Origin: Candidatus Formimonas warabiya
GTDB taxonomy: Bacteria; Bacillota; Dehalobacteriia; Dehalobacteriales; Dehalobacteriaceae
Length of the DNA stretch: 64,000 bases
Reading direction: 5' to 3'
Assembly: GCF_002777255.1 (NCBI RefSeq)
Contig: NZ_CP017634.1
Coordinates: 1,996,903 to 2,060,902, forward strand
The notes beneath the pieces are model-generated. The model saw only the letters and a program-made list of their open reading frames with translations. It was not told the DNA's origin and searched no databases. Of this stretch, positions 34,893 to 64,000 are shown in pieces. The stretch's first letter is position 1; the number at the start of each line of letters is the position of its first letter. A program made the translations under genes and the position numbers.

Positions 34893-34910
34893 TTCTTTTT
34901 CCTCCTTCCC

Positions 34911-35411: not shown

Positions 35412-35429
35412 GAACAAAACCTCCCCTTT

Positions 35430-37061: not shown

Positions 37062-37073
37062 GATCTCACCTCC

Positions 37074-37754: not shown

Positions 37755-37759
37755 TGTCT

Positions 37760-39097: not shown

Positions 39098-39143
39098 GCG
39101 GTCACGCTCCTACCTTTCCAAATTGAAGCAAGTTCTTAATAGG

Positions 39144-41027: not shown

Positions 41028-41076
41028 TTCATTCAGACCTCCTTTTCCTTTCAGATATCCCAGATTCACGAGAAAA

Positions 41077-41113
41077 GGGGGCCAGAAAAATCCTTGCTTC
41101 TGTCCTGACCCCC
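41077..41113 (-). other. Hairpin between receptor and permease genes
   Basis: A 9-bp stem with one G-T pair (GGGGGCCAG 41077-41085 with CTGACCCCC 41105-41113), followed on the minus strand by TTTTC. A weak terminator or mRNA-protecting hairpin here would give more receptor than permease. Confidence 0.55.
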
Positions 41114-41119
41114 AGAACC

Positions 41120-42121: not shown

Positions 42122-42253
42122 AATACTGACCTCCTTTTTCAATCAAAACCCCAGCGTCCTGACACATGAAATTTTCCAACCACCTCCAGCACATTTTTTA
42201 CATCCCGGCCCTTTTTCTTCTCTCGCTAAATTTCACCCTGTATCGCTTTATCT

Positions 42254-44681: not shown

Positions 44682-44696
44682 TTTTTGTCCTCCCAC

Positions 44697-44969
44697 TCAC
44701 GCCATTGCTCGCAGAATGGCTGTCTCCACCCTGGCGCGAATCGCAAAATCCAAGGCTCCTTGATCCTTTAAGACAACTCTTGCGTCTTGGATCTCATACT
44801 TTTTAAGCATTTCCTCAACCAGGGACCGGATCTGGGTGCCAAACTCGTATGCGACCGGGCTGGACAATTCCATACGAATTCCGGCCCCAGGTGCTGCCGG
44901 TTCCAAAGTGACGAGAATATCACTCTTCTCATTTGTTCCAGCCTGACCCATTCTTTGTAACAATGCCAT
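44697..44969 (-). CDS. citD: Citrate lyase acyl carrier protein, set 1
   Basis: A protein of 90 residues of the CitD family. The prosthetic-group region reads A-G-T-N-E-K-S-D, with a serine at residue 16, one place after the position of serine 14 in E. coli CitD (A-G-T-L-E-S-G-D). The family end D-F-A-I-R-A-R-V-E-T-A is conserved. It is the first gene of the 13.6 kb unit that ends at 31323. Confidence 0.88.
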   Translation of the reverse strand: MALLQRMGQAGTNEKSDILVTLEPAAPGAGIRMELSSPVAYEFGTQIRSLVEEMLKKYEIQDARVVLKDQGALDFAIRARVETAILRAMA

Positions 44970-45120
44970 ACCAACTCTCTCCTTCTCTCAGCATTCACCT
45001 GTAAAAAAATATCCCATTGATCCGGCTCATTCACCTTCCCTTCCCGATCATAGCTTTGCCGCCCCTCTCACACTGGTTTGTTCTCTCGGGTATCACCCCG
45101 GAGAATTGGATTGATGGATC

Positions 45121-48386: not shown

Positions 48387-49928
48387 TTATTTAGACTTAC
48401 GGATTACATCAATAATACTCCCGTCACGGTACTCAACTACTGCCACAACTTCATCGGATGGGGGCAGAGGCGGTGTTGGGATACCGGTCATTTGGTATGC
48501 TTTGCGTTGAAGTTCTTCTATCTTCATCACTGGAAGGCTGCTGTTCCGGAGATTATCGATCAGATCTTTTCTTTTCGGATTAACAGATACCCCATAGTCC
48601 GTGACGATCACATCGACTGTCTCACCAGGAGTTACCACGGTATAGACTCTATCCTGTATCATGGGCCGCCTACCGCGAATTAAAGGTAAGACAATAATCG
48701 AGACACTTGATCCGGCAGATGTGTCCGGATGCCCGCCCGGCGCCCCCATTAACCTTCCGGTGGAACCTGTAAGTACATTCACGTTGAAATCCACGTCAAC
48801 TTCCGTAGCACTTAGAATAACAAAGTCAACATTATTGACAATAGGCCCTCGGGAGTGGGGATTTGCATAAAGGGAAGCAGAAACCTCCACATGGCAAGGA
48901 TTTTCTTTTAGCGATCTGATGGACGGAGTATCAAAAGTCTGTGTATCAAACAACCTTTTAATTAATCCTTGCTCATGCATTTCAACCATCACACCTGTGA
49001 TACCACCCACTCCAAATGACGCGGCAATTTTTTGTTTAAGCATCTTTTCTTTGATAAATTTCGCTGCGGTAAGAGAAGCACCCCCGCTGCCGAGTTGAAG
49101 GGAAAAGCTATCCTTAAAATATCCGGAATATTCGATGACTTCAGCGGCATAGCGGGAAATCACCTGTTCCTTGGGGTTATTGCTGATACGTAGCGACCCT
49201 GTGGCTATCCCATTGGGATCTCCGATTTTATCCACGACAACAATAAAATCGACTAGGGATTGGGGAATACTAATCGGGTATAGGGGATGGGGAACGAGAT
49301 TATCGGTAATAGCTACGACCCGATCCGCATAGGCCGCATCTACCATGGGATACCCTAACGAGCCACATGCCGACGGACCATCCACGCCATTAATATTGCC
49401 ATAAGTGTCACATGCCGGAGCCCCAATAAATGCTACATCTATGTGGGTTTCTCCGCTTTCTATGGCCCGGGCGCGCCCCCCGTGGGTCCGGATAATCACT
49501 GGTTTTGAAAGCTTGCCGCTGCATACCAGGTCACCTAGCTTTTCCCGAATGCCGCTGGTTTCTATTGCGGTAATAACACCACGGTCAATATATGGGATCA
49601 GACAATCTTGTACAGCACTTAGGGAACTTGGTGCGATGGTTAAATCTTTGATTCCTTTACGGGCAACTGCTTCTATTACCATCAGCATGACATAATCGCC
49701 ATTACGAAAATGATGATGAAATGATATAGTCATCCCGTCCCTAAGACCGGTTGCTTCGATAGCCTGGTCAATTGATTTGAGTGTCTTTTCCGTGCGGGGA
49801 ACATTTACCGGGATTTTGGGACCTACTAATCTTCCCGTAGGTTGATAAGCGAAGGCTCCCTCAAACGGTCTTATTTTATTCAGACCCGGAATATTTTCAG
49901 GGATTTCTCTACCCACAGCATTTTTCAT
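48387..49928 (-). CDS. citF: Citrate/citramalate lyase alpha subunit, set 2
   Basis: A protein of 513 residues, highly similar over its whole length to the CitF at 42254; most differences are conservative. In this unit it is cotranscribed with methylaspartate ammonia-lyase, so citramalate is the more likely substrate, as in the methylaspartate pathway of glutamate-fermenting clostridia. It is the last gene of the unit that begins at 63437. It overlaps citE by 20 bases. Confidence 0.88.
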   Translation of the reverse strand: MKNAVGREIPENIPGLNKIRPFEGAFAYQPTGRLVGPKIPVNVPRTEKTLKSIDQAIEATGLRDGMTISFHHHFRNGDYVMLMVIEAVARKGIKDLTIAPSSLSAVQDCLIPYIDRGVITAIETSGIREKLGDLVCSGKLSKPVIIRTHGGRARAIESGETHIDVAFIGAPACDTYGNINGVDGPSACGSLGYPMVDAAYADRVVAITDNLVPHPLYPISIPQSLVDFIVVVDKIGDPNGIATGSLRISNNPKEQVISRYAAEVIEYSGYFKDSFSLQLGSGGASLTAAKFIKEKMLKQKIAASFGVGGITGVMVEMHEQGLIKRLFDTQTFDTPSIRSLKENPCHVEVSASLYANPHSRGPIVNNVDFVILSATEVDVDFNVNVLTGSTGRLMGAPGGHPDTSAGSSVSIIVLPLIRGRRPMIQDRVYTVVTPGETVDVIVTDYGVSVNPKRKDLIDNLRNSSLPVMKIEELQRKAYQMTGIPTPPLPPSDEVVAVVEYRDGSIIDVIRKSK

Positions 49929-50814
49929 AACTGTATTCCTCCCTTATCATGCCAAGCGCTCTAGCATATTGCATTACCCGTTCGGCTCTTGTCACAACCG
50001 GACCGTCAATCATCTTTCCATTTAACGCAATAACACCCGATTTATTCTGCACTGCTTCCTGATATGCTGCTAAAACATTTTTCGCAAGGTCTATTTCTTT
50101 TTCACTCGGGGCATAAATCTCGTGTACAATGGGAATATGATTGGGGTGGATCACAGACTTGCCGTCATAACCAAGAATTCTTCCCCAATTTGTATCTTCT
50201 CTAAAGCCTTCTTCATCATTTACATCAGAAAAAACATTGTCAATGGCCTGAACCCCGGCAGCACGCGCAGCATACAATATTTGGCTTTTAGCAAATAACA
50301 GCTCGTTACCTTCCCGGGTGCGGCTTCCTTTCAAATCAGCCACTAAATCTTCAGCACCCATGCCGATACCAATAACCCGTGGACTCGCTACCGCTAAATG
50401 ATAAGCACTCAAAATCCCTTTTGCTGTCTCAATCGTTAACACGATCTTGATCGTACCGGACTGAAACTGGTATTTTCTCTCAGCAGCACTAATAATTCGA
50501 TCCAATTCTTGAATATCATCCACTTTCTCGGCTTTCGGCAATCGAATGAATGCCGGTTTAGCGGGCAGAATAGTTGCTAAATCATCGCGGCCATACGACG
50601 TATCAAGCCCATTGATTCTAACCCCTATTTCACTAGGATACTCGATGTACATGATGGCATTACGTACCAGGATGCGGGCCGCATCCTTTTCATTTACTGA
50701 TACTGAATCTTCCAAGTCAAAGACTAAGCAGTCTGAGCGATAGATCCCGGCACTTTGTAATTTCCCAGGATCGTTGCCGGGAATAAATAACATAGTTCTG
50801 CGCAGTTTACTCAT
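49909..50814 (-). CDS. citE: Citrate/citramalate lyase beta subunit, set 2
   Basis: A protein of 301 residues, strongly similar to the CitE at 43776, with R-R-T-M-L-F-I-P-G-N-D-P, F-D-L-E-D-S-V and L-T-I-E-T-A-K-G. It should cleave the citramalyl or citryl thioester to acetyl thioester plus pyruvate or oxaloacetate. GGGGGGATAATAA precedes the ATG. Confidence 0.88.
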   Translation of the reverse strand: MSKLRRTMLFIPGNDPGKLQSAGIYRSDCLVFDLEDSVSVNEKDAARILVRNAIMYIEYPSEIGVRINGLDTSYGRDDLATILPAKPAFIRLPKAEKVDDIQELDRIISAAERKYQFQSGTIKIVLTIETAKGILSAYHLAVASPRVIGIGMGAEDLVADLKGSRTREGNELLFAKSQILYAARAAGVQAIDNVFSDVNDEEGFREDTNWGRILGYDGKSVIHPNHIPIVHEIYAPSEKEIDLAKNVLAAYQEAVQNKSGVIALNGKMIDGPVVTRAERVMQYARALGMIREEYSYEKCCG

Positions 50815-50829
50815 TTATTATCCCCCCAT

Positions 50830-51102
50830 TTAGGCCATTGCTCTTAGTATTGCTGTCTCCACCCTTGCCCGAATTGTAAAATCCCAAGCCCCTTTATCGT
50901 TTAAGACAACCTTAGCATCCATGATATGATAGATTTTAAGCATTTCGCCCACCAATGATTCGATACAATTGCCAAATTCGTATTTTACCGGGCTGGTTAG
51001 CTCCAAACTAAGCTTGGCTCCAGGCTCCGCAGGCTCTATAGTAACTAAAATATCATTTTTCCCTTCTGTTCCAGCCACACCGGTTCTGTGCAACAAGGTC
51101 AT
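50830..51102 (-). CDS. citD: Citrate lyase acyl carrier protein-like, set 2, attachment serine missing
   Basis: A protein of 90 residues of the CitD family. The prosthetic-group region reads A-G-T-E-G-K-N-D, so there is no serine at either place where CitD proteins carry it; the paralogue in set 1 has A-G-T-N-E-K-S-D. The rest, including the end R-A-R-V-E-T-A-I-L-R-A-M-A, is well conserved. Either another residue carries the cofactor, or the lyase works with a free CoA thioester and CitD has become structural. The ATG at 51102 follows GGAGGGG; a longer frame upstream is unsupported. Confidence 0.82.
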   Translation of the reverse strand: MTLLHRTGVAGTEGKNDILVTIEPAEPGAKLSLELTSPVKYEFGNCIESLVGEMLKIYHIMDAKVVLNDKGAWDFTIRARVETAILRAMA

Positions 51103-51223
51103 CACAACCCCTCCTTCATCAAAATCGTAGCAAAAAATAAAGATGGTTATGCCATAAGTCAGTCCAATAGACCTACAGATACATAACATTGATTGAGCCG
51201 TTTTTTATTCCCTCGTCAATTGC

Positions 51224-52030
51224 TCATTTATCAGCCATACTACATAACCCTTTAAGGTACCCATTAAGAAAATCACAGCAATAGGGATCATGGCCCAGCA
51301 GCATTCGGGAAATCAATAGGTCTGCCTGCACGCCTTTATCAAGCGGGTTTAGAAAAAAAGTCTGTACACCTACAGTCATCAGCTGTATCATAAAGATTCG
51401 ATTAATCCGGTTTCTGTTAGGCAGCCCAAAAGAAATATCTGACATGTTACAGGCAAAATTGACCTCGGGGAAATCTTTCTTGATCATCAAGATCGTTCGT
51501 AATACTTCCTGGCCTGCGTTCGCGTTGAGACAGATTGGTTTAAGCAGCAAGTCAAGATAAATATCTTGCGGGGCTACTCCATTCTCTTTTAGTCTGTTGA
51601 TCAGCTGACCCGCTAAGGTATACCGTTGTTCCGCGGTATCGGCGGTACAGACGTCATCCATCAGCAGCCCTAAAACCATTGCCTTGTATTTTAGAACCAG
51701 CGGCAATACCTCATTAAATCGTTTCTCTTCACATGAAATAGCATTGACTATCGGTTTTCCGTAATGGCATAAGGATAATCCCGTATCCAGGACTTCCGGA
51801 TGCACACTACCAATGCATAGCGGCACATCAACAGTATCCTGAATAAGACCGACAAACCACTTCATGATTTCCCTTTCCCGGTCCCCAAAGCTGGAAGAAT
51901 TTACTTCCAAATAATGAGCTCCCGCCTCTACCTGCTGTTTGGCCAGCTGCCTAATTAAATCTCCATCCCCATTTTTGGCTGCTTCAAAGACCTGTGGACG
52001 TCTAGTGGATATCAATTCACCAATTATCAT
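51224..52030 (-). CDS. Methyltetrahydrofolate methyltransferase-like protein
   Basis: A protein of 268 residues with the pterin-binding TIM barrel of AcsE and related corrinoid methyltransferases: I-I-G-E-L-I-S at the start, G-A-H-Y-L-E-V-N near residue 37, C-N-M-S-D-I-S-F-G-L-P-N-R near 190 and N-R-I-F near 206. These enzymes move a methyl group between tetrahydrofolate and a corrinoid protein. No corrinoid protein is encoded nearby. Its role in the unit may be to collect a one-carbon unit released from the substrate, but this is inference. Confidence 0.78.
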   Translation of the reverse strand: MIIGELISTRRPQVFEAAKNGDGDLIRQLAKQQVEAGAHYLEVNSSSFGDREREIMKWFVGLIQDTVDVPLCIGSVHPEVLDTGLSLCHYGKPIVNAISCEEKRFNEVLPLVLKYKAMVLGLLMDDVCTADTAEQRYTLAGQLINRLKENGVAPQDIYLDLLLKPICLNANAGQEVLRTILMIKKDFPEVNFACNMSDISFGLPNRNRINRIFMIQLMTVGVQTFFLNPLDKGVQADLLISRMLLGHDPYCCDFLNGYLKGLCSMADK

Positions 52031-52050
52031 TGGGCGTAACTCCCCTTAGA

Positions 52051-54525
52051 TTAAATGACAATTTCCCTGAGGACATCACAACGCAAACAACGCCTGCATT
52101 CCACCAAGGCAGACTTTTCCGTCAATCCTTCCTCTACTTCAGCAAAATCACCCTTCCTGCTCTCTGGTGGAATCAAGGCCGCCTCCGGTCTCCCTATTTC
52201 ATCCTCGTTTACAGGACCTGACAGTTGCCTGACAAAGAGCTTTTTCGATATAATCTGCCCATCACCGCCCAAATATCTGTCGAGGGAAAGTGCCGCCTCT
52301 TTGCCATATTTAACGGCTTCCACAACGGAGCTAGGCCCGCTGACACAATCACCACCGGCAAAAACCCCCTCAACACTGGTTGCACAGGAGGCGGATATTT
52401 CAAGCAGAGAATTCTTTCCTATCTTGATTTTGCTGGCAGAAGGGTCAAATGAGTCATCAACCACCTGACCAATAGCAACGACAATCCGGTCTATCTCTAA
52501 ATCTAAGGTTCGATTTTCATCATATGCCGGGTTAAACAGACATTCACGATCAAAAATCGATGTACAGGATTTCAAGGTTATTCCTGTAACCTTTCCATCT
52601 TTTCCAGTAATGGTCCTTGGGCCCCAACCATTATTAATCATAACTCCTTCTTTTACGGCTTCGGCTACTTCATCCGCATAGGCCGGCATCTCCTCCCTGC
52701 TTTCCAGGCAAAAAATCTGCACCTCTTTAATACCCATCCGGGTAAGACTCCTTGCCACATCAATAGCTACGTTTCCGCCGCCAATAACCGCTACCCTTTT
52801 ACCGTAAAATTCCATCTTTTTCCCTAAGTTCAGGTCGCGCAAAAAATTAACTCCCGCATAAACGCCCTGATAGTCTTCCCCTTCTACCTGCAGCGGCCGA
52901 TTTTTGTGGGTACCTAAGGCCAAGTAGATCGCCTGATACCCCTGCTCTTTTAACCCTTCCAGACGAATGTCCTGCCCCAGGGTGACGTTCGTCTGAATTT
53001 TCACGCCCATTTCCCGCAAAACCTTCACTTCTTCGGCAAGCAAACTTTTCGGCAAACGGTACCCCGGTATTCCCACCGCTAACATTCCCCCTACCACAGG
53101 AAGCTTTTCAAACACAGTAACCTGATAACCCTTTTTTCTTAAATAGAAAGCACAGGTCAATCCGGACGGTCCTGATCCAATGATCGCAACCCTGGTATCC
53201 TTTTCTGGAGCAACGGGAGGCACAGGCAATTTTTTTTCCTGGGCCAAAATCCGGTCCGCCGCAAAACGCTTAAGTAACCTGATGGCAATGGGTGCGTCAA
53301 TTTTCACCCGGTTACATAGACTTTCACAAGGGTGGTTACATACGCGTCCGCAGATCAGCCCCAGCGGGTTTTCCCATTGAATGACCTGATACGCTTCCCG
53401 GTATTTCTTTTGGCCCACCAAGTCCACGTAAACCGGAACATCTACATTAGCCGGGCAGGCGTTCTGGCAGGTATATCTCATACAATGGATCGGAGCTTCC
53501 AGATCATGTCTTTCATACAGGCACTCACTACAATACAAGCACTCTTTCATGAGGTCATCACGCTTTTGCCGGACATGTTCTACCCACATGGTATCAGCAA
53601 TCAACGGTCGGGCCAAAGCCACCAAGTCGGCCCTACCCTCCCGGATCACACTCTCGGCAAATTGGGGGTTACCCAGTTTTCCTACTGTCATCACCGGTAT
53701 CTTAACCAATTTTTTTATTGCTTCCGCAAAATACACGTTGGGACCGTCAGGAAACTCAATGGTAGGTTTACCCCTGACATCGCTGTAACCTTTTAAGCCT
53801 GCATCATCAAACCGCACGCCGACACTGACATCAAGACAGTCTATACCAGCCTTTTCCAATTCCCCGGCAAAAATACCGGTATGCTGAAGGGTGTTTCCCC
53901 CCACAACAAATTCTTCAGCGTCAAATCTTGCCAAAAGAGGATAATCCGGCCCCACCACTTCCCGGATTTGTTTAATAATTTCCAAATGAATCCTCATGCG
54001 TCCGAAAATATCGCCCCCGAATTCATCGGTACGTTTGTTGGTGCGGCGGGATAAGAAGTCCGCTAAGGTGTAAGTGTGGGCAAAATGTAGTTCACTCCCA
54101 TCAAAACCGGCCTCCACTGCCCTTCTGGCCCCGTTGACCATATCGGCTACGATCTCAAAGACTGTTTCACGGGAAAGATCAGCCGGTTTTAGTCCCACGC
54201 CATGAATAGAATGGGCAAGCTGAATGGCAATTTTGCTCCCCTCACGATGTACTGCATCAACCAGCTTCCTTAACCCATCAATATGTTCATCTTTGCTGAT
54301 TTGTAGACGTTTGCCGGGATGAATGTAATAAGAATTGACGCTGGTATGCTCAATGATAATTAACCCTACTCCTGAATGAGCCCTAGCCACATAGTGCTTG
54401 ATATTGCCGTCGGTAACACCGCCGTCGGTGCCGGCTGTATTCGTAAACGCCGGGGACATGACGATCCGGTTGGGTAATTCCATAGCATTGATTCTAATCG
54501 GGGTAAATAATCCAATTTCCGTCAA
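52051..54525 (-). CDS. Old-Yellow-Enzyme/GltD-like fusion flavoprotein
   Basis: A protein of 824 residues. Residues about 1-345 form an Old-Yellow-Enzyme FMN barrel (P-N-R-I-V-M-S-P near 19). A cysteine-rich segment follows (C-L-Y-C-S-E-C, then C-Q-N-A-C-P and C-G-R-V-C-N-H-P-C-E-S-L-C), then a GltD-type FAD/NAD(P) domain (I-I-G-S-G-P-S-G-L and V-I-G-G-G-N-V-A). It ends in another C-R-R-C-L-R-C motif. It probably reduces an enoate or ring double bond with NAD(P)H. The start is the TTG at 54525 with GGGAGG upstream, because earlier starts would overlap the previous gene. Confidence 0.85.
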   Translation of the reverse strand: MTEIGLFTPIRINAMELPNRIVMSPAFTNTAGTDGGVTDGNIKHYVARAHSGVGLIIIEHTSVNSYYIHPGKRLQISKDEHIDGLRKLVDAVHREGSKIAIQLAHSIHGVGLKPADLSRETVFEIVADMVNGARRAVEAGFDGSELHFAHTYTLADFLSRRTNKRTDEFGGDIFGRMRIHLEIIKQIREVVGPDYPLLARFDAEEFVVGGNTLQHTGIFAGELEKAGIDCLDVSVGVRFDDAGLKGYSDVRGKPTIEFPDGPNVYFAEAIKKLVKIPVMTVGKLGNPQFAESVIREGRADLVALARPLIADTMWVEHVRQKRDDLMKECLYCSECLYERHDLEAPIHCMRYTCQNACPANVDVPVYVDLVGQKKYREAYQVIQWENPLGLICGRVCNHPCESLCNRVKIDAPIAIRLLKRFAADRILAQEKKLPVPPVAPEKDTRVAIIGSGPSGLTCAFYLRKKGYQVTVFEKLPVVGGMLAVGIPGYRLPKSLLAEEVKVLREMGVKIQTNVTLGQDIRLEGLKEQGYQAIYLALGTHKNRPLQVEGEDYQGVYAGVNFLRDLNLGKKMEFYGKRVAVIGGGNVAIDVARSLTRMGIKEVQIFCLESREEMPAYADEVAEAVKEGVMINNGWGPRTITGKDGKVTGITLKSCTSIFDRECLFNPAYDENRTLDLEIDRIVVAIGQVVDDSFDPSASKIKIGKNSLLEISASCATSVEGVFAGGDCVSGPSSVVEAVKYGKEAALSLDRYLGGDGQIISKKLFVRQLSGPVNEDEIGRPEAALIPPESRKGDFAEVEEGLTEKSALVECRRCLRCDVLREIVI

Positions 54526-54559
54526 TGTCTTCCCTCCCTGAGAAATAATTAGGTCTCGC

Positions 54560-55039
54560 CTAAAATTTATGGAGCTTCTTTGCCGCAATTTTCACAGCAT
54601 CGACAAATTGGCCATATCCAGTACAGCGGCACAGATGACCGGATAATTCGGTTTTAATCTCCTCTTCCGTAGGCATCCCATCCTTATCCAGTAAAGCTTT
54701 GGCAGAAAGAACCACCCCCGGGGTGCAATAACCGCATTGGATCGCTCCTGCCTCGATGAAAGCTTCCTGGATTGGATGCAATTCCCCATTATTACTGATT
54801 CCTTCAATCGTGACCACTCTTTTGCCTTGTACCTTCATGGCAGGTACAAGACAGGAATTAACAGGTTTTCCCTCCAAGAGGACGGTACAGGCACCGCATT
54901 CCCCCTCGCCACAGCCTTTTTTAGTGCCGGTGAGCAGCATTTTTCTCCTCAAGACATCTACGAGCGGCTCATCCGGCAAAACACCAACCTGTACTTCCTC
55001 GCCATTCAAGTTAAATATTAAAGGTTGTGCTTTAGTCAT
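54560..55039 (-). CDS. Molybdenum hydroxylase 2Fe-2S subunit
   Basis: A protein of 159 residues with the two clusters typical of xanthine dehydrogenase small subunits: G-C-G-E-G-E-C-G-A-C near residue 43 and C-G-Y-C-T-P-G, then C-R-C-T-G-Y near 100-140. It carries electrons from the molybdenum site to the FAD subunit. Its ATG overlaps the stop of the FAD subunit gene (TAATG). Confidence 0.92.
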   Translation of the reverse strand: MTKAQPLIFNLNGEEVQVGVLPDEPLVDVLRRKMLLTGTKKGCGEGECGACTVLLEGKPVNSCLVPAMKVQGKRVVTIEGISNNGELHPIQEAFIEAGAIQCGYCTPGVVLSAKALLDKDGMPTEEEIKTELSGHLCRCTGYGQFVDAVKIAAKKLHKF

Positions 55040-55920
55040 TAAATCTGACCCCCTATTAAGTTTGTGGCGGCTGCGTTTAGGGCCCGATGCACCAAATCCT
55101 TTACCAGCGCCCGTCTATACGCCGCGGAACCACGTAGAAGACTGTCGCGCGGGTTCGCTTCCTGACCGGCCATGAAAGCTGCCTCCTCCCATGCGGCCCC
55201 ATCATCAAGTTTTTTACCGATCAAGGAAGCTTCTGCTTTAGCGGGGCAAAAAGGCTGCGTTGATACAGGGCCCATGCTGATTCTGGCCTGGGTAATCCGG
55301 CCATCCCCGGAGCCAACACATACCGCACAGTTCAGAATTGGCAAGGCCAAAGCTTCCCGGGGCGCAATCCGTAGGAAACTCGTGCTGCTTCCCTTTTCCA
55401 ACAAGGGAAGCATAATTTTAGTAATGACTTCTCTCCGACTATCCACCTTGCTTTTTCCTATGCCTGCATAGAGGTTTTTCACCAGTTCCACACGGCTTCC
55501 CTCCGGAGAAGCAATCTCCAAACTGGCGCCCAGAGCGATTAAGGCAATAGCTGAATCCGCGGCAGGCTGGGCACTGACTACGTTTCCGGAAAGGGTCCCC
55601 ATATTCCGCACTTGAGGAGACCCTACGCTCACACAAGCATCAGCCAGAGCAGGAAACAGCTCATTCATCCTGGGATCGGCAGCTACCTGAGCATGTGTCA
55701 CGGCTGCTCCTAAAACTAAGGTATCATCTTTAATTTCCCATATCTTCAGCTCCGGTATTTCAGTTACGTCAACCAGAGCCTTAACCTCCAGCTTTTTCTC
55801 TTGTAAGGACAGCATCACATCGGTGCCGCCGGCAATAATACAGGCTTCTCCTTGATAGCTCGCCAGCATTTTTAGGCACTCTTCCACAGTCTTAGGGGTC
55901 AGATATGCTTCCATACTCAT
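55039..55920 (-). CDS. Molybdenum hydroxylase FAD subunit
   Basis: A protein of 293 residues with the FAD-binding domain of the xanthine dehydrogenase/CoxM family (I-I-A-G-G-T-D near residue 28, and the G-N-V-V-S-A-Q-P-A-A-D-S segment near 110). It passes electrons to NAD or ferredoxin. The ATG at 55920 follows GGAGGGGGAG and overlaps the catalytic subunit stop by four bases. Confidence 0.9.
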   Translation of the reverse strand: MSMEAYLTPKTVEECLKMLASYQGEACIIAGGTDVMLSLQEKKLEVKALVDVTEIPELKIWEIKDDTLVLGAAVTHAQVAADPRMNELFPALADACVSVGSPQVRNMGTLSGNVVSAQPAADSAIALIALGASLEIASPEGSRVELVKNLYAGIGKSKVDSRREVITKIMLPLLEKGSSTSFLRIAPREALALPILNCAVCVGSGDGRITQARISMGPVSTQPFCPAKAEASLIGKKLDDGAAWEEAAFMAGQEANPRDSLLRGSAAYRRALVKDLVHRALNAAATNLIGGQI

Positions 55921-58205
55921 TTCTCCCCCTCCTTTACATGGTTCTGCAAAGCCCAAAACATTTTCTCCGCTGTAATGGGCAGATCATGAATACGAATCCC
56001 CACTGCGTCCTGAATAGCATTGGCAATGGCCGGGGCAGTCGGTATTAAAGTCGGCTCACCAATTCCTTTGGCACCAAACGGGCCCACAGGGTCATTTGTT
56101 TCCACCAAAATCGGTTCAATTTTCGGCATGTCTTTGATGGTCATTAAAATATAATTTCTCAAACTGGCATTTTGAGGTATGCCGTTCTTTTGAATTTGGT
56201 TCTCATATAAAGTCCACCCAATTCCCTGGGCTACACCACCGGAAATCTGTCCGAAAACCCCCTGGGGATTGATTACTGCCCCTACATCATGGGCCGTAAC
56301 AATTCTCAGCACTCTTACCTGACCTGTTACAGTATCAACCTCGACCTCAACACCATGGGCACCATAGGTATAAGCGCTGGAATAATCCCCGTAACCGGTA
56401 CTGTCATTTCCTTGCGTCGGCGGGTCGTAAGTAATATAGGCAGTCAATTCCGCAGCTTCCCTGGTTCTAATTCCGTATTTGCATATCTCGGCAAGAGAAT
56501 ACTTATGGCCCGGATCCATCCTGTTATAAACAACATCATCATTAATTTCCAGCCGGCCACTATCCACTCCCATCTTTTTTGCGGCCAGTTGCAGCAATTG
56601 ATCCTTCACTTTTTGCACAGCCAGTTGAACCGCTCTGCCTCCCACCGTGGTAACCCGGCTGGAATAGGTCCCGTAACAAAAAGGGCTGATATCGGTATCC
56701 AAGGGCATGACAAAGATATGATCTACCGGCATTCCCATCGTTTCGGCGGCGATTTGCGCAAATACCGTCTTGCAGCCCTGTCCCAGATCGGCCTCTCCGG
56801 AATATACCATTAATTTTCCGTCCTCGTGAAAACGTACCATTGCTGAGGAACCATCAAAATTATCTCCGCCCCGGTTCCCAGAAACATGATTCATACAGGC
56901 CAGACCAATTCCCCTCTTTATCCTGCCGTTCTGTGCTTCCGCAGGCAACCGGTTTACCTTGATCGCCTGGGCAGCCTTTTCAATACATTCCGCCAAACCG
57001 CAGCTGCGCAGCTTCCAGCCATGAAGGGTGGTGTCTCCTTGCCTTGAGGCATTCTTTAACCGGACTTGGACCGGATCCAAGCCAATTTTGCGGCAGCAGA
57101 TATCAATCATGGACTCCAGGGCAAAATGCATTTGGCTATTTCCATAGCCGCGGAACCCGCTGGTAGGAATTAAATTTGTATAGACCAGTTTGGCATCGGT
57201 TCTTGTGGATTTGAATCTGTACAGGCAGTCGGTTCGCATCGACATGTTCAAAAGAATCTTCGATGCCGCCCAGGTATAGGCCCCGTTGTCCGCCAGGATC
57301 TCAGCCTGTTTGGCCACCATTGTGCCATCCTGCATCATCCCCAGCTTCAGCCTCATTTTGGGTGCCACCCGGGGCCGGGTGGTCAGCATTTCTTCTTCCC
57401 GGGTTAAAACAATTTTCACCGGACAGCCGGTTTTCTTCGCCAGCACCGCAACAATCGGGTGAAAATTCCGGATCCATATTTTACCTCCAAATCCGCCTCC
57501 GATAAACGGCTCTTTTATATTTATCAGGGCTGGACTAATGCCTAAAGCCTTGGCAATCTCGTTTCTGCCGTGAAACACAGCCTGCAAGCCAGTCCAGATC
57601 GTGAGCCGGCCGTCATGCTCCCACCTGGCGATAGCGCCAAAAGGCTCCATATAACAGGCCGAGACCCTGCTGGTACTGAATTTCTCCTCAAAAACATAGT
57701 CGCAACGCACAAAATCTTCATCCACATTACCCCGTTCGAAATGATAGGTCTTGGCTACATTGCCTATCTTATCCTCATGAACCAAGAGCGCCCCCAGAGC
57801 CACGGATTCCTCCACATTTGTAACAGGCCTAAGTACCTCGTAGTCCACCTTGATCAGGGAGAGGGCAGCCTGGGCAATTTCCTCACTGGTGGCAGCGACT
57901 GCCGCCACCTCATCACCCACATATCGTACTTTATCTTTTGCCAACATGGTCACATCCGCGATTTCCAGGCCAAAATAGTTGGACGGACAATCATCTGCCG
58001 TAATCACCCCTTTGACACCCGGGAGTTTTAATGCCTGCGATATATTAATGGCCTTAATTTGCGCGTGGGGATGAGGAGAACGTAATATTTTACCATATAA
58101 CATACCGGGAAAACTCAGATCGTCAAGATAGTTTGCCTGACCGGTTACCTTTTCTTTAGCATCAATAAATTCTTGCTTTAGTCCCACATATTTACGTTTT
58201 CCCAT
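55917..58205 (-). CDS. Molybdenum hydroxylase catalytic subunit
   Basis: A protein of 762 residues of the xanthine dehydrogenase large-subunit family. Cofactor regions include E-P-F-I-G-G-G-F-G-G-K near residue 226 and G-Y-G-N-S-Q-M near 352. The catalytic glutamate lies in G-P-F-G-A-K-G-I-G-E-P near 715. It hydroxylates an N-heterocycle or aldehyde using water. In nicotinate-fermenting Eubacterium barkeri the matching subunit is split in two; here it is one polypeptide. The ring substrate is unknown. Confidence 0.9.
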   Translation of the reverse strand: MGKRKYVGLKQEFIDAKEKVTGQANYLDDLSFPGMLYGKILRSPHPHAQIKAINISQALKLPGVKGVITADDCPSNYFGLEIADVTMLAKDKVRYVGDEVAAVAATSEEIAQAALSLIKVDYEVLRPVTNVEESVALGALLVHEDKIGNVAKTYHFERGNVDEDFVRCDYVFEEKFSTSRVSACYMEPFGAIARWEHDGRLTIWTGLQAVFHGRNEIAKALGISPALINIKEPFIGGGFGGKIWIRNFHPIVAVLAKKTGCPVKIVLTREEEMLTTRPRVAPKMRLKLGMMQDGTMVAKQAEILADNGAYTWAASKILLNMSMRTDCLYRFKSTRTDAKLVYTNLIPTSGFRGYGNSQMHFALESMIDICCRKIGLDPVQVRLKNASRQGDTTLHGWKLRSCGLAECIEKAAQAIKVNRLPAEAQNGRIKRGIGLACMNHVSGNRGGDNFDGSSAMVRFHEDGKLMVYSGEADLGQGCKTVFAQIAAETMGMPVDHIFVMPLDTDISPFCYGTYSSRVTTVGGRAVQLAVQKVKDQLLQLAAKKMGVDSGRLEINDDVVYNRMDPGHKYSLAEICKYGIRTREAAELTAYITYDPPTQGNDSTGYGDYSSAYTYGAHGVEVEVDTVTGQVRVLRIVTAHDVGAVINPQGVFGQISGGVAQGIGWTLYENQIQKNGIPQNASLRNYILMTIKDMPKIEPILVETNDPVGPFGAKGIGEPTLIPTAPAIANAIQDAVGIRIHDLPITAEKMFWALQNHVKEGEK

Positions 58206-58234
58206 GCTTTCACCTCCAGAAAATTTCCCATCTA

Positions 58235-59113
58235 CTAATTGCTCTTTTTAAGCGTAATCAGGGACTCCTCCAAATCAGGCGGCCAGACACCGATTGCTCC
58301 TTGCACAAAAATCAGGGCTCCTTTGATCATTTCCTGTGCATATAATTGTTGAGCATATTTGAGGCCGTTGGTCACGGCAGCTTGGATACTAGGCCGGCTT
58401 AACTTTCTCACTTCTTTCGTCACAATGTGCCCGAAGATATCCGTATGGTAATCCAAGTCTTGGGCAAAACATCTGATTACTGCCGGATCACTGCAGTCAG
58501 TGGCATTGGCTACAGCAGTAGCCGCCGCATCGGCCAGGCCGCTGTTTTCGGCTAATATGGTTACCGCAGAGGCTACCCCTTTAGTCAGACTCCGCCCGCC
58601 GAATCCGCTGGTAGCTACACCGCTGATGCCGTCTCCGGGACCGATGCTCACCACTTGGGTGACGATACCTTCTGCCAGATCCCTTAAGATACCGACACGG
58701 ATCGGTTGATCCTCATTGCCCAGAAATAAGGCGATATCTCCCCCGTTGTTAACGAAAATCCGGTCTGCTCCGGCATCGACGGTCCGTCTCACCACCAGGT
58801 CTGAAAAGCAACCGGCCACAGCCGCCATGGGAGTGAAATCAGGCTGTTCCAGCAACCGAACAGAAGATATCATCTTTTGTAATATTTCCGGGTAACATCC
58901 GTCCCTTTCCGGCCTTAATCGGCCGACCGGCATACGGGCAATCTCTAAAAATTTCACTAAATCCTCAAAATAATCAATAGCTGACTCTGCGCCGGCAACT
59001 GCTGCCGTGTGATATGGACAGCCTTCCTTATTTGCACTTATTACCATGGTAATCGGCCCATAGTCGACGAGCACCTGGCCCGGTCTGAGCATCCTGTACT
59101 TCATCTGGTCCAT
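58235..59113 (-). CDS. UPF0280 family protein (ApbE-like fold)
   Basis: A protein of about 292 residues of the UPF0280 family, distantly related to the FAD:protein FMN transferase ApbE. Landmarks are A-V-A-G-A-E-S-A-I-D, F-V-N-N-G-G-D-I-A-L-F-L-G and G-I-S-G-V-A-T-S-G-F-G-G-R-S. I place the start at the ATG at 59113 behind GGGAGG; a longer frame to 59215 starts with TTG and has no ribosome binding site. Its function is unknown; next to an iron-sulfur flavin-type reductase it may help cofactor attachment. Confidence 0.8.
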   Translation of the reverse strand: MDQMKYRMLRPGQVLVDYGPITMVISANKEGCPYHTAAVAGAESAIDYFEDLVKFLEIARMPVGRLRPERDGCYPEILQKMISSVRLLEQPDFTPMAAVAGCFSDLVVRRTVDAGADRIFVNNGGDIALFLGNEDQPIRVGILRDLAEGIVTQVVSIGPGDGISGVATSGFGGRSLTKGVASAVTILAENSGLADAAATAVANATDCSDPAVIRCFAQDLDYHTDIFGHIVTKEVRKLSRPSIQAAVTNGLKYAQQLYAQEMIKGALIFVQGAIGVWPPDLEESLITLKKSN

Positions 59114-59164
59114 AAAACAGCGCAACCTCCCGTTTAAGCACGCACACCGCATCATCAGGGTAGG

Positions 59165-59196
59165 GGAGAACCCGCTGGCAACAAGCCGGGTTCTCC
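59165..59196. other. Hairpin before the UPF0280 gene
   Basis: Perfect 10-bp arms GGAGAACCCG (59165-59174) and CGGGTTCTCC (59187-59196) with a 12-base loop lie in the 105-base gap between the 4Fe-4S reductase-like gene and the UPF0280 start. No T run follows on either strand. Confidence 0.5.
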
Positions 59197-59218
59197 ACGT
59201 AAAATTTGTCAACAAAAA

Positions 59219-60742
59219 TTATTTACTTTGCCTGAACCAAGCATATCGTCCTTCTTTAATTACATCACTCAACGGCCTGATGCTTGTGATGTGGCCCCCA
59301 ATCCGGGCATACTTATCACGGATGATGGTATATTCGATCGGGGCCACCACCGCCGGTGAGGTCGTATAAGTAAAAGGATGAGGAATCATCTGCTCTAAAT
59401 CCGCCAAGAAGGTAATCCCTCCCCCCGGCATCACAAAGGTGGGCGCACCTGCTATGGTCAATACCGCGTCACCTTGATGCACGGCTTTGGTCAGCATAAT
59501 CGGGTTTACAGTTACTCCCGCCCGGGCACTGCCACCTACACCGGCATAATACATACCCGTTACCCGGCTATCTTCGCAGTTGCCTGCGGCCATCTGTCTA
59601 AACGCTTCCAGTTCAGGGGTTAAAGGGATGGGAATGGGTTCTCCCTGGGTATTGATTTCAAACAGAGCCACTTGCCGCCATGTGGTTTCTGCCACCAGGA
59701 CCTTCATTCCTGCTCTGGCCCGGGTCATATCAACGGACTTGATCGCATCGCGGGGATTATTAATATTGGTGCCGCCCCATCCATTGCCGTGTTCAAAGAA
59801 GTAACGCCCGGTTGTCGCCAACCTGCCTACCGGCTGGATTCCACTGGGGGGTAATTGTTCCGCCCCGGCAGGGTGGGCCGTAAAGAGCCCGGTAATATGG
59901 TGGTCAATGATAATAGCTTCATCCACCAACTGGCCCAGGTGCTTGGCAAATAAGCCGCAGCACGCCCCTCCGCACCCTACCCGCATTTTAGTATCTTCCA
60001 CCCCATCAATAATCGGATGCTTTCCCACCTGCAGGTCAAGAGTATGACCGTTTTCGATTTTTAACTGCACAGTTTCCCGATTGCCCAATTCCGTCATGGT
60101 CTTGACCACGGCCAAGCCATCGGGCCCCTTCACCCTGTTTATACCCCCTAAAATCATCACATGAGATCCATACTGTTCCGCAGTCATCATGCCAACGACT
60201 TTTCCGTCCCGTTTGACGCAAGCGCCCTCATCGCCAATATGAATATTGCTATCAATTTTTATCATCATGGAGCTGTAGGAAATAGGCGCTTCAGTTACTA
60301 CGGTGACTACATCGTAATCTTCCACCTGCTCTTGGACGATATAGGGCGCCGGGTGATAATCGGGATATGCGGCACCTGCTCCAACCGCACTGATCAAGGG
60401 CCGGCTGATGGCAATCTTTTCCCGGTCGACGGGGTTCTCTTGCCGGATATGCAAGGGCCTGTTGCGGACTAATTCTCCTTTTTCGTTGGTAAACCGTTTG
60501 CATGCGCCCACCAACCCCTCCGGTATCTCACAACGGACACCGCATTTCATACACACTACACTGGCCGGTACCGCTTCCCCAACAGAAATAGCCTGGGACT
60601 TACATACATTTAAACAGGCCCGGCACATAGCACATGTTGGGCTTACCACAGCCTTCTTCTCTACTACTTTTACAGCCCCCAAAGGGCAAGCTTTTTCACA
60701 AAGCTTGCACCCGATACATTTCTCCCTATCAATAGCTATCAT
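59219..60742 (-). CDS. 6-hydroxynicotinate reductase-like 4Fe-4S protein
   Basis: A protein of 507 residues. An N-terminal ferredoxin domain has C-I-G-C-K-L-C-E-K-A-C-P and C-A-M-C-R-A-C-L-N-V-C-K, then C-M-K-C-G-V-R-C. The long C-terminal part matches what I know of Hnr from nicotinate-fermenting clostridia, which reduces 6-hydroxynicotinate with ferredoxin (G-C-G-G-A-C-C-G-L-F near residue 255; M-P-G-G-G-I near 440). Together with the hydroxylase and the enamidase-like gene it forms a ring-hydroxylation, reduction and opening set. The actual ring may differ from nicotinate. Confidence 0.78.
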   Translation of the reverse strand: MIAIDREKCIGCKLCEKACPLGAVKVVEKKAVVSPTCAMCRACLNVCKSQAISVGEAVPASVVCMKCGVRCEIPEGLVGACKRFTNEKGELVRNRPLHIRQENPVDREKIAISRPLISAVGAGAAYPDYHPAPYIVQEQVEDYDVVTVVTEAPISYSSMMIKIDSNIHIGDEGACVKRDGKVVGMMTAEQYGSHVMILGGINRVKGPDGLAVVKTMTELGNRETVQLKIENGHTLDLQVGKHPIIDGVEDTKMRVGCGGACCGLFAKHLGQLVDEAIIIDHHITGLFTAHPAGAEQLPPSGIQPVGRLATTGRYFFEHGNGWGGTNINNPRDAIKSVDMTRARAGMKVLVAETTWRQVALFEINTQGEPIPIPLTPELEAFRQMAAGNCEDSRVTGMYYAGVGGSARAGVTVNPIMLTKAVHQGDAVLTIAGAPTFVMPGGGITFLADLEQMIPHPFTYTTSPAVVAPIEYTIIRDKYARIGGHITSIRPLSDVIKEGRYAWFRQSK

Positions 60743-60767
60743 CAGGGATACCTCCGAGCTATGATTT

Positions 60768-62018
60768 TTAAAGTTTACCTGCTTTTTTGGCGCGCAGGAT
60801 AGTCAAAAGTCGTTCCTGTTCGTTATTGACGATCATGACTCCTTCATCCACGCCCATTCCCGGCTTCCCTGCCATGGCAAAGGGTTGCGTGGCCAGGGCC
60901 AAGTTAACACAGACAACAGCCGATTTATCAGTTTCATTGCAGGTACCGCCCTGGTAGGCTAAAACACCATGTGCCTTGCAATACAACACGGCTTCTACGA
61001 TGTTGTTGATACCGCCCAAGTCGATCGTTTTAACCTGAACCATATCAGCAGCCTTTTCATCCACCCAGACTTTGATTTCTTCATAGGTATTCGCATATTC
61101 ATCAATAATCAGCTTAAGGGCGGATCCGGCTGCATCCAGTTTTTTGCGCATATATTTAAAAGCCTGCAATTGCCCTTCGTTAGATTTCATGTCCACCGGC
61201 ATTTCAACGAATACTTCAAAAGGCTTACAAGCCTTCTCAACCTGGAGGAGATATTCCGTCACCCGGTCCAGATCATTATTAAAAGCCTTCCCCATGCACC
61301 CATAGACGTCAAAACGGAGCACCGGACGATAACCCTCAGGTCCGATGTCCAGAATGCGATTCACTACCCACTTAACCCAGTTTAAAAATATTTCTCCGTC
61401 TTTCCCAAGCTTCTCTTCCACGTTATTGATCAGTCCATGAGGCATCATGCCGACCTGTTTGAGAATCATTTTATCCACGTTGGTATAGCGTTCGTCTCCT
61501 GACTGGGCATTAATCCGGACCGGCTTAAGTTCGAGGGTGAGTCCGTATTCCTCGGCAATTACTTCCGCCATGGTCAGGTGCCTGGCCTTCGCCACGGTTT
61601 CCAAAATGGCCTGAGTTACACCGTAGCGAATAGAGGCAGGAAGCTGCTCTCCATCTATTTTCATACGGTCAAACTCTTCCGCGGCCTGACGGAAACTGGT
61701 TATATCCTTTCCTTCAAACAAAGGAACAACCTTCTCTTCCAGCACCCGGATGATATCCTTAGACCGCATGGGAACTTCCCGCCCACCGCTGGCGGCATAC
61801 TGGGCAACGGCGCAGTCGCCATACACGATATCATTATTTTCCAGAATGAACATCACGGATACCGCCTCACCGGTTTGCCTGATAGTATCAAAGCCGGGGG
61901 TTCTTGGTTCCCCGCGATAAATAAAGCCGTCGGATTTGGCACCTTCCTTGATCGCTTCCTTGTCATCCATATAAAAGCCTGTAAATCCGGGCGCACATAG
62001 TACTTTTTTGATCTTCAT
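60768..62018 (-). CDS. Methylaspartate ammonia-lyase
   Basis: A protein of 416 residues that follows the Clostridium tetanomorphum enzyme along its whole length (M-K-I-K-K-V-L-C-A-P-G-F-T-G-F-Y). The catalytic residues are kept: H194 (M-P-H-G-L-I-N-N-V-E-E-K) and K330 (V-Q-V-K-T), with magnesium ligands D237, E272 and D306 and the G-G-T-C-N-E-T segment. It removes ammonia from 3-methylaspartate to give mesaconate. No glutamate mutase is in the window, so the origin of the methylaspartate is open. Confidence 0.93.
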   Translation of the reverse strand: MKIKKVLCAPGFTGFYMDDKEAIKEGAKSDGFIYRGEPRTPGFDTIRQTGEAVSVMFILENNDIVYGDCAVAQYAASGGREVPMRSKDIIRVLEEKVVPLFEGKDITSFRQAAEEFDRMKIDGEQLPASIRYGVTQAILETVAKARHLTMAEVIAEEYGLTLELKPVRINAQSGDERYTNVDKMILKQVGMMPHGLINNVEEKLGKDGEIFLNWVKWVVNRILDIGPEGYRPVLRFDVYGCMGKAFNNDLDRVTEYLLQVEKACKPFEVFVEMPVDMKSNEGQLQAFKYMRKKLDAAGSALKLIIDEYANTYEEIKVWVDEKAADMVQVKTIDLGGINNIVEAVLYCKAHGVLAYQGGTCNETDKSAVVCVNLALATQPFAMAGKPGMGVDEGVMIVNNEQERLLTILRAKKAGKL

Positions 62019-62090
62019 TTTGCAATTCCTCCGTTCGAAATTAATGTAAAAGAAATCCTATTACCGTGCTCTAAATTATTTTAATCCTTC

Positions 62091-63437
62091 TTAAGCGCAG
62101 CGTTTCCCGTCTTTCGCGACTCTTCTTCCGCCGATAAAGATTTGTTCCACCTTTGAAATTTCAGGATAGGAAGTAATTAAAACATCTGCCGTATAGCCCT
62201 TCTGGAGTAATCCCAAGTTGGGCGCAATGCCGGGAATCGCTTCCAGAACATTCTTAGTGCCCAAAGCAATTGCCTTTGGCAGTGAAATAACATGATGTTC
62301 GATGCCGTGCTGCATGGCTTCTAACATGGAATCAAAGCTCCCTGCGGCAAAGTCGGTAGAAATGATATCCACCACATCTTCTTTGAAGAAAGCAAACAGA
62401 TTATCGGGAACAGCTACCAGTCTTTTTGCGCCAAAAGGATCGTGAACAGCGGCATCAATGATGATGCCCGGATACTGGCGCAGTTTCTTCGTATTCTCCA
62501 AGCACTCTTCCAATGTAAAAAGATAATTTGAATGGGCCGCGATTAAGCGCTTCACCCCCACCCGGGCAATTTCATGCACCATCTTCATAGAAGTCGGGGC
62601 GTTATGGACTAAAAGAGGTACATCCAATTTTTGGGCCATCAGGGCGGCTTCCATGTAACCGTCCAAGGCTAACTTAACTGATGCTAAAGTTGTGGCGAAA
62701 ACAATATCTTTGGTTTGCTCCGGAGTTAGGAAGCCGTCCAGATGATGCTCTTTCAAAGCCTGGGCTACACGATCCCGGTCATAGTACGACCCCTCGATGT
62801 ATCTCCCCAAGACGGATAACTTCATGGCCCGAGCCTGTAAATAGTCCATATCCCTTCCGGTGGCGTTCTTGACTGCTTTAGGAATATAAAGATAATCTTG
62901 GCCGCCGCCACCCAACGTGTGACCGCCGCCAACTTCACCGATACAAATTGCCCCATCTTCAAACATTTTTTCCACAGTCATGAGGGCATGCTTCTGTTCC
63001 AATCCGCTCCCATCACACTTTAATCCGGCTTCATAATTAATCGGCATATGCGTGGTGGCAGTTTTTATCCGAATCGGATGGTTTTTTTGTGTTTCCTTTA
63101 CCTCATCCATAGTCACGAATCCATCCACATTCATTACCGTGGTATGTCCCTGCAGCAAGTTTCTGTCCAAAAGCTCCAGTATTCTCTCCCGCCCGTAATT
63201 TTGAGCGCCGCTGGCAAAAATCGGTCCAAAGGTGACACCGTGCTGATGGTGATTAATCATGCCGGGTAATATTGCTTTTCCTTCACAATTAATAACTTCT
63301 TCTGCATAATTTTCAATGCCAGGATCATACCCCTGCACTACATCGGATATCTTTTCCCCCTCAATGATTAATGAGCCTTTCTCCATTAATGTTTGCCCAT
63401 CCCCTGTTACTATTGTCCCATTCTTTAATACAAGCAT
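62091..63437 (-). CDS. Enamidase-like amidohydrolase
   Basis: A protein of 448 residues of the metal-dependent amidohydrolase superfamily. Metal ligands are in N-H-H-Q-H-G near residue 61, H-T-L-G-G-G near 173, L-L-V-H-N-A-P near 275, A-A-H-S-N near 297 and D-F-A-A-G near 362. The sequence resembles enamidase, which opens the reduced nicotinate ring, more than dihydroorotase or hydantoinase. It is the first gene after the sigma-54 promoter at 63491. Confidence 0.8.
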   Translation of the reverse strand: MLVLKNGTIVTGDGQTLMEKGSLIIEGEKISDVVQGYDPGIENYAEEVINCEGKAILPGMINHHQHGVTFGPIFASGAQNYGRERILELLDRNLLQGHTTVMNVDGFVTMDEVKETQKNHPIRIKTATTHMPINYEAGLKCDGSGLEQKHALMTVEKMFEDGAICIGEVGGGHTLGGGGQDYLYIPKAVKNATGRDMDYLQARAMKLSVLGRYIEGSYYDRDRVAQALKEHHLDGFLTPEQTKDIVFATTLASVKLALDGYMEAALMAQKLDVPLLVHNAPTSMKMVHEIARVGVKRLIAAHSNYLFTLEECLENTKKLRQYPGIIIDAAVHDPFGAKRLVAVPDNLFAFFKEDVVDIISTDFAAGSFDSMLEAMQHGIEHHVISLPKAIALGTKNVLEAIPGIAPNLGLLQKGYTADVLITSYPEISKVEQIFIGGRRVAKDGKRCA

Positions 63438-63490
63438 TGTCTATCCCTCCTTATAGCTATCACAAATGTAATTGTTTTGCATTGATATAC

Positions 63491-63506
63491 TGCAAACTTT
63501 ATGCCA
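63491..63506 (-). promoter_or_regulatory. Sigma-54 promoter of the amidohydrolase-to-citF unit
   Basis: The minus strand reads TGGCATAAAGTTTGCA, an exact match to TGGCAYR-N4-TTGCA, about 55 bases before the amidohydrolase start. The -24 part lies in one arm of an inverted repeat (63497-63510 with 63519-63532, 13 of 14 paired), so a regulator may compete with polymerase there. Confidence 0.8.
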
Positions 63507-63628
63507 AAACATTCCCCAGTTTTAGCATAAAGTGTGTAATATATATCTCTCACGGAAAACTGATATCAGATTAGTCGCCTAACGCCGGCTTTACGAATGC
63601 CCTCGTGTTAAAATATTGAACGTAACGT

Positions 63629-64000
63629 TTATTTATTTAACGTAAGCGTAGCCCGCCTAGGGTCAAAACAACAACCTACCCGCATCGATACGATCCTGAC
63701 TCCGCTGGCCCGCTGAGGTCCCACCTTCAGGAAAGTAGCTAATACGGTGTTTTTTCCTCCTAAGCCAAGGGGTCCGATGCCCGACTCATTAACAGCATCA
63801 GTAATCCTTTTTTCTAAATCACTCTGTACGGAAAAATCCCCCTCTTTTGCTGCTTCCAACGCGAGTGAAGCAGCTTCCACATTAGATCGGCCAATGCCGA
63901 ATATGAGAACGCACGGCAGGCAACCCAGTTTGTCGGCACCCTCCGTGGCCCATTGGACCATTTCTTTCAATACAACATCAAGGGAGTGCTGATGAAAGAT
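63629..64000 (-). CDS. Class I fumarase/mesaconase alpha subunit, partial
   Basis: The C-terminal 124 residues of a fumarase alpha-type protein; the start lies beyond the window. The frame is open to position 64000 (F-H-Q-H-S-L-D-V-V-L-K-E before the first methionine at 63970). Cluster cysteines appear in K-L-G-C-L-P-C and G-C-C-F-D-P-R-R. It is a distinct paralogue of the subunit at 34035. Upstream of the methylaspartate ammonia-lyase unit, it fits mesaconase, which hydrates mesaconate to citramalate. Confidence 0.85.
   Translation of the reverse strand: MFHQHSLDVVLKEMVQWATEGADKLGCLPCVLIFGIGRSNVEAASLALEAAKEGDFSVQSDLEKRITDAVNESGIGPLGLGGKNTVLATFLKVGPQRASGVRIVSMRVGCCFDPRRATLTLNK

Follow-up and report, generated by a model that had tools for sequence, protein, structure and literature searches.

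Locus and proposed route

Which nitrogen heterocycle is broken down, and to what products, by a gene cluster that places ring-hydroxylating and ring-reducing enzymes next to a methylaspartate ammonia-lyase (MAL)? The cluster lies at one end of a 64,000-nucleotide stretch (the window) from Candidatus Formimonas warabiya, an anaerobic soil/aquifer bacterium, at positions 1,996,903-2,060,902 of its single-contig genome of 6,441,270 bases. We propose that it encodes the redox-neutral anaerobic catabolism of a pyridine-2,3-dicarboxylate, most likely quinolinate, as an assembly of known enzyme families, and we put the probability of this reading at roughly 0.6. The genes, from 5' to 3', are as follows (L002 is the flank beyond the window end).

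L002 606-1112: hydratase beta subunit (FumB), directly upstream of the FumA-like gene
63629-64000, minus strand, cut by the window end (full extent window 63629 to L002 592): FumA-like class I fumarase-type hydratase alpha subunit, beside MAL across the clade described below
62091-63437, minus strand: amidohydrolase (Amidohydro_1), proposed lactamase on 6-oxopiperidine-2,3-dicarboxylate
60768-62018, minus strand: MAL-family ammonia-lyase with an enlarged polar pocket for the 3-substituent (TIGR01502, 513 bits; alignment to 1kcz)
59219-60742, minus strand: 6-hydroxynicotinate-reductase-like (Hnr-like) ring reductase with an N-terminal 2x[4Fe-4S] ferredoxin domain
58235-59215, minus strand: UPF0280/ApbE-like protein, its true start perhaps downstream of the annotated one
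55917-58205, minus strand: molybdenum (Mo) hydroxylase large subunit, unsplit, 762 aa (XdhA/4-hydroxybenzoyl-CoA-reductase-like, MoCoBD_1/2)
55039-55956, minus strand: Mo hydroxylase FAD subunit
54560-55039, minus strand: Mo hydroxylase [2Fe-2S] subunit
52051-54588, minus strand: OYE/2-enoate reductase fused to a GltD-like NAD(P)H module (Oxidored_FMN, Fer4_20 and Pyr_redox_2; BaiCD-like)
51224-52030, minus strand: methyltetrahydrofolate:corrinoid methyltransferase-like (MeTr-like) protein (NF005719, 258.9 bits)
50830-51102, minus strand: CitD-like lyase acyl carrier protein, start picked by ribosome-binding site
49909-50814, minus strand: CitE-like lyase beta subunit (TIGR01588, 344 bits, cut-off 443)
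48387-49928, minus strand: CitF-like lyase alpha subunit (TIGR01584, 709 bits, cut-off 501)

Every gene that an earlier note on this DNA had named, including the Mo hydroxylase, the Hnr-like reductase, MAL, the CitDEF-like set and a hydratase subunit, was recovered where that note had placed it and in the same family, in one tight minus-strand run. Intergenic gaps from the amidohydrolase through CitF range from -40 to +72 bp, sizes that fit a single transcript. FumA and FumB, separated by 13 bp, form a pair 5' of this main run, with 191 bp between FumA and the amidohydrolase; the beta subunit that the note had thought might follow does so directly once the window is extended.

We infer the substrate, each intermediate and the order of steps from the enzyme classes. 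The Mo hydroxylase would convert quinolinate to 6-hydroxyquinolinate, whose C4=C5 bond would be reduced by the Hnr-like protein and whose C2=C3 bond would be reduced by the OYE/enoate reductase, giving 6-oxopiperidine-2,3-dicarboxylate. Ring opening of this lactam by the amidohydrolase would yield 3-(2-carboxyethyl)aspartate, in which the nitrogen stays on as an amine, and MAL with its enlarged pocket would remove NH3 to leave but-1-ene-1,2,4-tricarboxylate, a homoaconitate isomer that FumAB would hydrate to homocitrate. CitDEF, or in some relatives a citryl-CoA synthetase/lyase-like set, would split homocitrate into acetate (acetyl-CoA) and 2-oxoglutarate, and a KorABG-type ferredoxin oxidoreductase would turn the latter into succinyl-CoA and CO2, balancing the electrons. 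The overall equation closes and is redox-neutral: quinolinate (C7H5NO4) + 4 H2O = acetate + succinate + CO2 + NH3.

A replaced substrate pocket in the ammonia-lyase

A search of the window MAL against ~85,000 prokaryote genomes returned 11 loci at 72-79% identity, followed by a gap down to 52%. With the window sequence these make a clade of 12 from Bacillota and Synergistota, which a tree of 82 MALs recovers as a single long-stemmed group (support 100). The window protein scores well above the TIGR01502 cut-off of 286 bits and retains the catalytic and metal-binding residues Q73, Q172, H194, D238, E273, D307, Q329, K331, Y356, T360 and C361 (numbered as in 1kcz, the Clostridium tetanomorphum MAL, which served as reference of the alignment). 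F170, Y356 and L384 line the pocket into which the methyl group of the usual substrate fits (PMC7241714). All 12 clade members have N170, Y356 and A384 instead of this hydrophobic set, and the changes F170N, L384A and A385G, present in 12 of 12, occur in none of 70 canonical MALs; residue 384 is leucine in all 70 where aligned. Since the methyl pocket is replaced, the family's defining substrate is no longer indicated, and the same chemistry, elimination of NH3 beside a carboxylate, is expected on another compound.

Engineered L384A and L384G variants of MAL take fumarates with large C2 substituents (PMC4517298). The clade shares with the first of these an alanine at 384, which would admit bulky 3-substituents; it differs in that its A384 is natural, fixed clade-wide, and combined with N170 and G385. 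Candidate residues for binding the additional carboxylate are N170 and those of an H236R/R271F exchange. If our reading is true, nature reached L384A, the same change that protein engineers designed. We consider it quite probable that an N-heteroaromatic dicarboxylate gives rise to the MAL substrate, an aspartate with a bulky 3-substituent.

The earlier note had the pathway reach mesaconate and end in acetate plus pyruvate, and a ring opened to 3-methylaspartate, then converted through mesaconate and citramalate, would indeed suit a MAL that exceeds the TIGR01502 equivalog cut-off, the more so as canonical MALs are likewise accompanied by FumAB and CitDEF. We give this version little chance. 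The pocket for the methyl group is lost in the whole clade, and none of the pyridine and pyrrole carboxylates that we considered (see below) opens to 3-methylaspartate; moreover, CitDEF is replaced by citryl-CoA-type lyases in two lineages. Glutamate mutase, which the note had thought might lie beyond the window, did not turn up: its E component (PF06368) was found neither in the window genome nor in six of eight relatives with the cluster. MAL is thus not fed from glutamate, and we rejected glutamate mutase as its feeder. A tricarboxylate series, from homoaconitate and homocitrate to acetate and 2-oxoglutarate, fits better than the unlikely series of mesaconate, citramalate and pyruvate.

A cluster conserved in two phyla

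The MAL clade is found in the cultivated Lutispora saccharofermentans m25, a Desulfovirgula metagenome-assembled genome, Clostridiales PH28_bin88 and several Synergistota, with relatives from sediment and from animal guts (including Synergistaceae). In all 11 related loci the Hnr-like gene either adjoins MAL or stands a few genes along the run, and where contigs extend far enough the shared core, with its Mo hydroxylase unsplit, reads FumB-FumA-amidohydrolase-MAL-Hnr-UPF0280-Mo hydroxylase-OYE. The MeTr-like gene stands outside this core, being present in the window cluster and in none of the related ones. In a Synergistales genome, OYE is followed in a row by YqeC, MocA, YqeB and CitDEF, an order that links the lyase, as well as Mo-hydroxylase maturation, to this gene unit. 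These gene families and their synteny, like the pocket replacement and the absence of alternative feeders, are direct observations on the sequences.

Such conservation in 11 other genomes of two phyla excludes chance clustering and supports the earlier note's joining of N-heterocycle degradation to an ammonia-lyase, hydratase and lyase route. It makes very improbable that ordinary nicotinate fermentation merely sits beside an unrelated MAL and lyase set. The homology of the Hnr-like protein, 47-52% identical to Hnr proteins at other loci, would agree with nicotinate as substrate; against it, Hnr accompanies MAL in 11 of 11 relatives, the other Hnr loci examined lack both MAL and OYE, the Mo hydroxylase is unsplit, and no enamidase of the kind found with Hnr in other Firmicutes is present in the genome. 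The note had itself set classical nicotinate fermentation aside, correctly in our view, and its suggestion that either the ring or the route after ring opening is a different one was right. Hydroxymethylglutarate dehydrogenase, methyleneglutarate mutase and dimethylmaleate hydratase were not seen in the window or its flanks, the genome not having been searched for each.

Choice of ring

We took 23 mono- to tricarboxylates of pyridine and pyrrole through a set of rules: hydroxylation alpha to the nitrogen, ring reduction, lactam opening, and a MAL-type elimination that needs an aspartate-like unit. Only compounds carboxylated at both C2 and C3 pass the MAL rule. Nicotinate, picolinate and other pyridine mono- and dicarboxylates were rejected as substrates, as none of them opens to an aspartate-type amino acid.

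Pyrrole-2,3-dicarboxylate passes this rule as well, and could yield 3-(carboxymethyl)aspartate, then aconitate and citrate, and finally acetate plus oxaloacetate; a CitF above the citrate lyase cut-off and a citryl-CoA-like lyase in two genomes would suit such an ending. Yet a hydroxypyrrole has one C=C to reduce and a pyridone has two, so the two reductases retained in the core favour a pyridine. The Hnr family, moreover, reduces pyridones, and pyrrole-2,3-dicarboxylate is not known as a common metabolite. We therefore think the pyrrole rather unlikely.

Pyridine-2,3,4- and 2,3,5-tricarboxylates also satisfy the MAL rule. They enter a further alternative, in which a related pyridine (for instance 6-hydroxynicotinate with a carboxyl group added at C2, or a pyridine-2,3,x-tricarboxylate) joins the lower pathway through UbiD and UbiX, whose genes lie near the cluster, with an FrdA-like flavoprotein and TctABC, in the window organism and PH28_bin88. 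This entry is doubtful: UbiD and UbiX are not part of the core, being absent within up to 10 kb on each side at other loci, and no UbiD of known pyridine specificity was identified.

Quinolinate, in turn, is a tryptophan breakdown product, a NAD precursor and a neurotoxin.

Enzymes proposed to attack the ring

The genome has a single Hnr. Its predicted model is confident (pLDDT 85), and only the ferredoxin domain matches solved structures; for the body of ~440 residues we found neither a Pfam domain nor a fold match in the PDB, so the ring-reducing domain may have a new fold. A UPF0280 gene is the neighbour of Hnr at almost all Hnr loci seen (L030-L045 and L048-L057), and its product is probably dedicated to the reductase, as partner, maturation factor or flavin-loading factor. 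The large subunit of the Mo hydroxylase is one chain here and two pieces in many other Hnr loci.

The earlier note's enamidase-like amidohydrolase holds as to family, and its kinship to enamidase is only distant. It is conserved at 65-79% identity in 10 relatives, with HxH and other invariant His, Asp and Glu residues. A search of the genome with the enamidase-type protein of L033 gave only short weak matches, and comparison with PDB sequences produced only a 64-residue match to dihydroorotase; we rejected enamidase as its identity. The predicted model is poor (mean pLDDT 58.9), and its fold matches to AtzC, dihydroorotase and hydantoinase (TM score no higher than 0.3) indicate the amidohydrolase superfamily and nothing finer. 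We read the protein as a lactamase because an enamidase would free the nitrogen before MAL acts.

The OYE/GltD-type enoate reductase is conserved across the MAL clade. In PH28_bin88 and Desulfovirgula, a ferredoxin and FlpD/MvhD tail replaces GltD (L028 12599-15835), and MetV-like and MetF-like genes follow, an arrangement hinting at a different electron supply.

The lyase step

CitD, CitE and CitF subunits and a citrate lyase ligase are encoded in the genome. The earlier note had called the set citramalate-lyase-like; a CitDEF set is present, but it scores nearer to citrate lyase than do canonical citramalate-lyase sets. Window CitF reaches 709 bits as compared to 609 in the CitF of canonical MAL clusters, and window CitE, although below its cut-off, exceeds the 280-284 bits of canonical MAL-cluster CitE. 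In PH28_bin88 and Desulfovirgula, CitDEF gives way to a citryl-CoA lyase-like protein (285.7 bits, curated cut-off 212) and a SucCD-like pair whose beta subunit has a weak ATP-citrate-lyase citrate-binding domain. This replacement and the CitE and CitF scores give independent support for a citrate-like intermediate. The substitution of a SucCD-like ligase and a citrate-synthase-fold lyase for CitDEF in these two relatives resembles citryl-CoA synthetase and citryl-CoA lyase, with the difference that the relatives' set is proposed to act on homocitrate, not citrate.

AtuA-family genes (PF07287) lie beside OYE in Lutispora (L153 13777-15129) and, in 11 canonical loci without CitDEF (L061, L062, L064, L066, L067, L073, L074, L076, L089, L095 and L124), immediately 3' of MAL. 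Given this placement, a third lyase system, one that cleaves citramalate or homocitrate, may include AtuA.

Several points count against quinolinate catabolism as proposed. Citrate-synthase-fold lyases usually yield oxaloacetate, not 2-oxoglutarate. CitDEF adjoins the cluster in some but not all Synergistota genomes, and neither CitF nor a citryl-CoA lyase was found in Lutispora. In Desulfovirgula and in the window organism KorABG adjoins the cluster, which formation of 2-oxoglutarate would predict, but this set can serve central metabolism. UbiD, UbiX, the FrdA-like flavoprotein and the MeTr-like protein are without a role in the scheme. Finally, TctC resembles several aromatic- and amino-acid-binding proteins and not quinolinate binders specifically. 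TTT binding proteins with submicromolar affinity for quinolinate do exist (PMC11452294); we nonetheless rejected TctC as proof of quinolinate uptake, the resemblance being general to the TTT family.

Relation to known systems

Nicotinate fermentation of the Eubacterium barkeri type uses Ndh, Hnr, enamidase, Hgd, methyleneglutarate mutase and Dmd. The likeness lies in a Mo hydroxylase followed by Hnr ring reduction with UPF0280, and in the overall equation, nicotinate + 4 H2O -> acetate + propionate + CO2 + NH3, which parallels the one proposed here for quinolinate. The present cluster differs in its unsplit Mo hydroxylase, its extra enoate reductase and a lactamase in place of enamidase; in the proposed route NH3 would be lost through an enolase-superfamily lyase, and no B12 mutase would be needed.

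Glutamate fermentation via 3-methylaspartate (Clostridium tetanomorphum; PMC8473912) shares the sequence of MAL, hydratase and CitDEF-type lyase, with acetate and a 2-oxoacid as products. The cluster's genome, unlike that system, lacks glutamate mutase and its MAL pocket is enlarged; a carboxyethyl group would take the place of the methyl group, and 2-oxoglutarate that of pyruvate.

Our literature search retrieved nothing relevant on anaerobic quinolinate degradation, or on MAL with Hnr or homocitrate, though older physiology papers may exist; bacterial "quinolinic acid degradation" does occur in gut-microbiome studies among the literature found. We lean, at slightly better than even odds, towards an undescribed, B12-independent quinolinate fermentation via homoaconitate and homocitrate in Clostridia and Synergistota, gut lineages included, with a 3-(2-carboxyethyl)aspartate ammonia-lyase and catabolic homocitrate or homocitryl-CoA lyases. 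If true, this would provide marker genes for a dissimilatory quinolinate pathway in sediments and animal guts (Synergistaceae), and testable functions for the MAL clade, the amidohydrolase clade and alternative citrate-lyase-type modules.

Neighbouring genes

Farther upstream of FumB, the flank encodes UbiX, the FrdA-like flavoprotein, UbiD, TctABC, a sigma-54-dependent regulator and KorABG; no sigma-54 -24/-12 promoter sites were found at up to two mismatches. The UbiD/UbiX/FrdA-like/TctABC group (L002 1339-8775; L046 3196-10859), which near the cluster occurs only in the window organism and PH28_bin88, may supply the route with a more carboxylated pyridine or have no connection with it. The closest solved relative of UbiD is 7pda, from which no tie to a substrate was obtained.

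Within the window, positions 34035-45034 carry a paralogous set comprising FumAB, CitDEF, MmgE/PrpD, FrdA-like proteins and a TAXI-TRAP transporter. Its FumAB are 53/61% identical to those of the cluster and its CitF, CitE and CitD 86/79/70%, respectively; it may be a pathway by which a free di- or tricarboxylate arrives at the same lyase.

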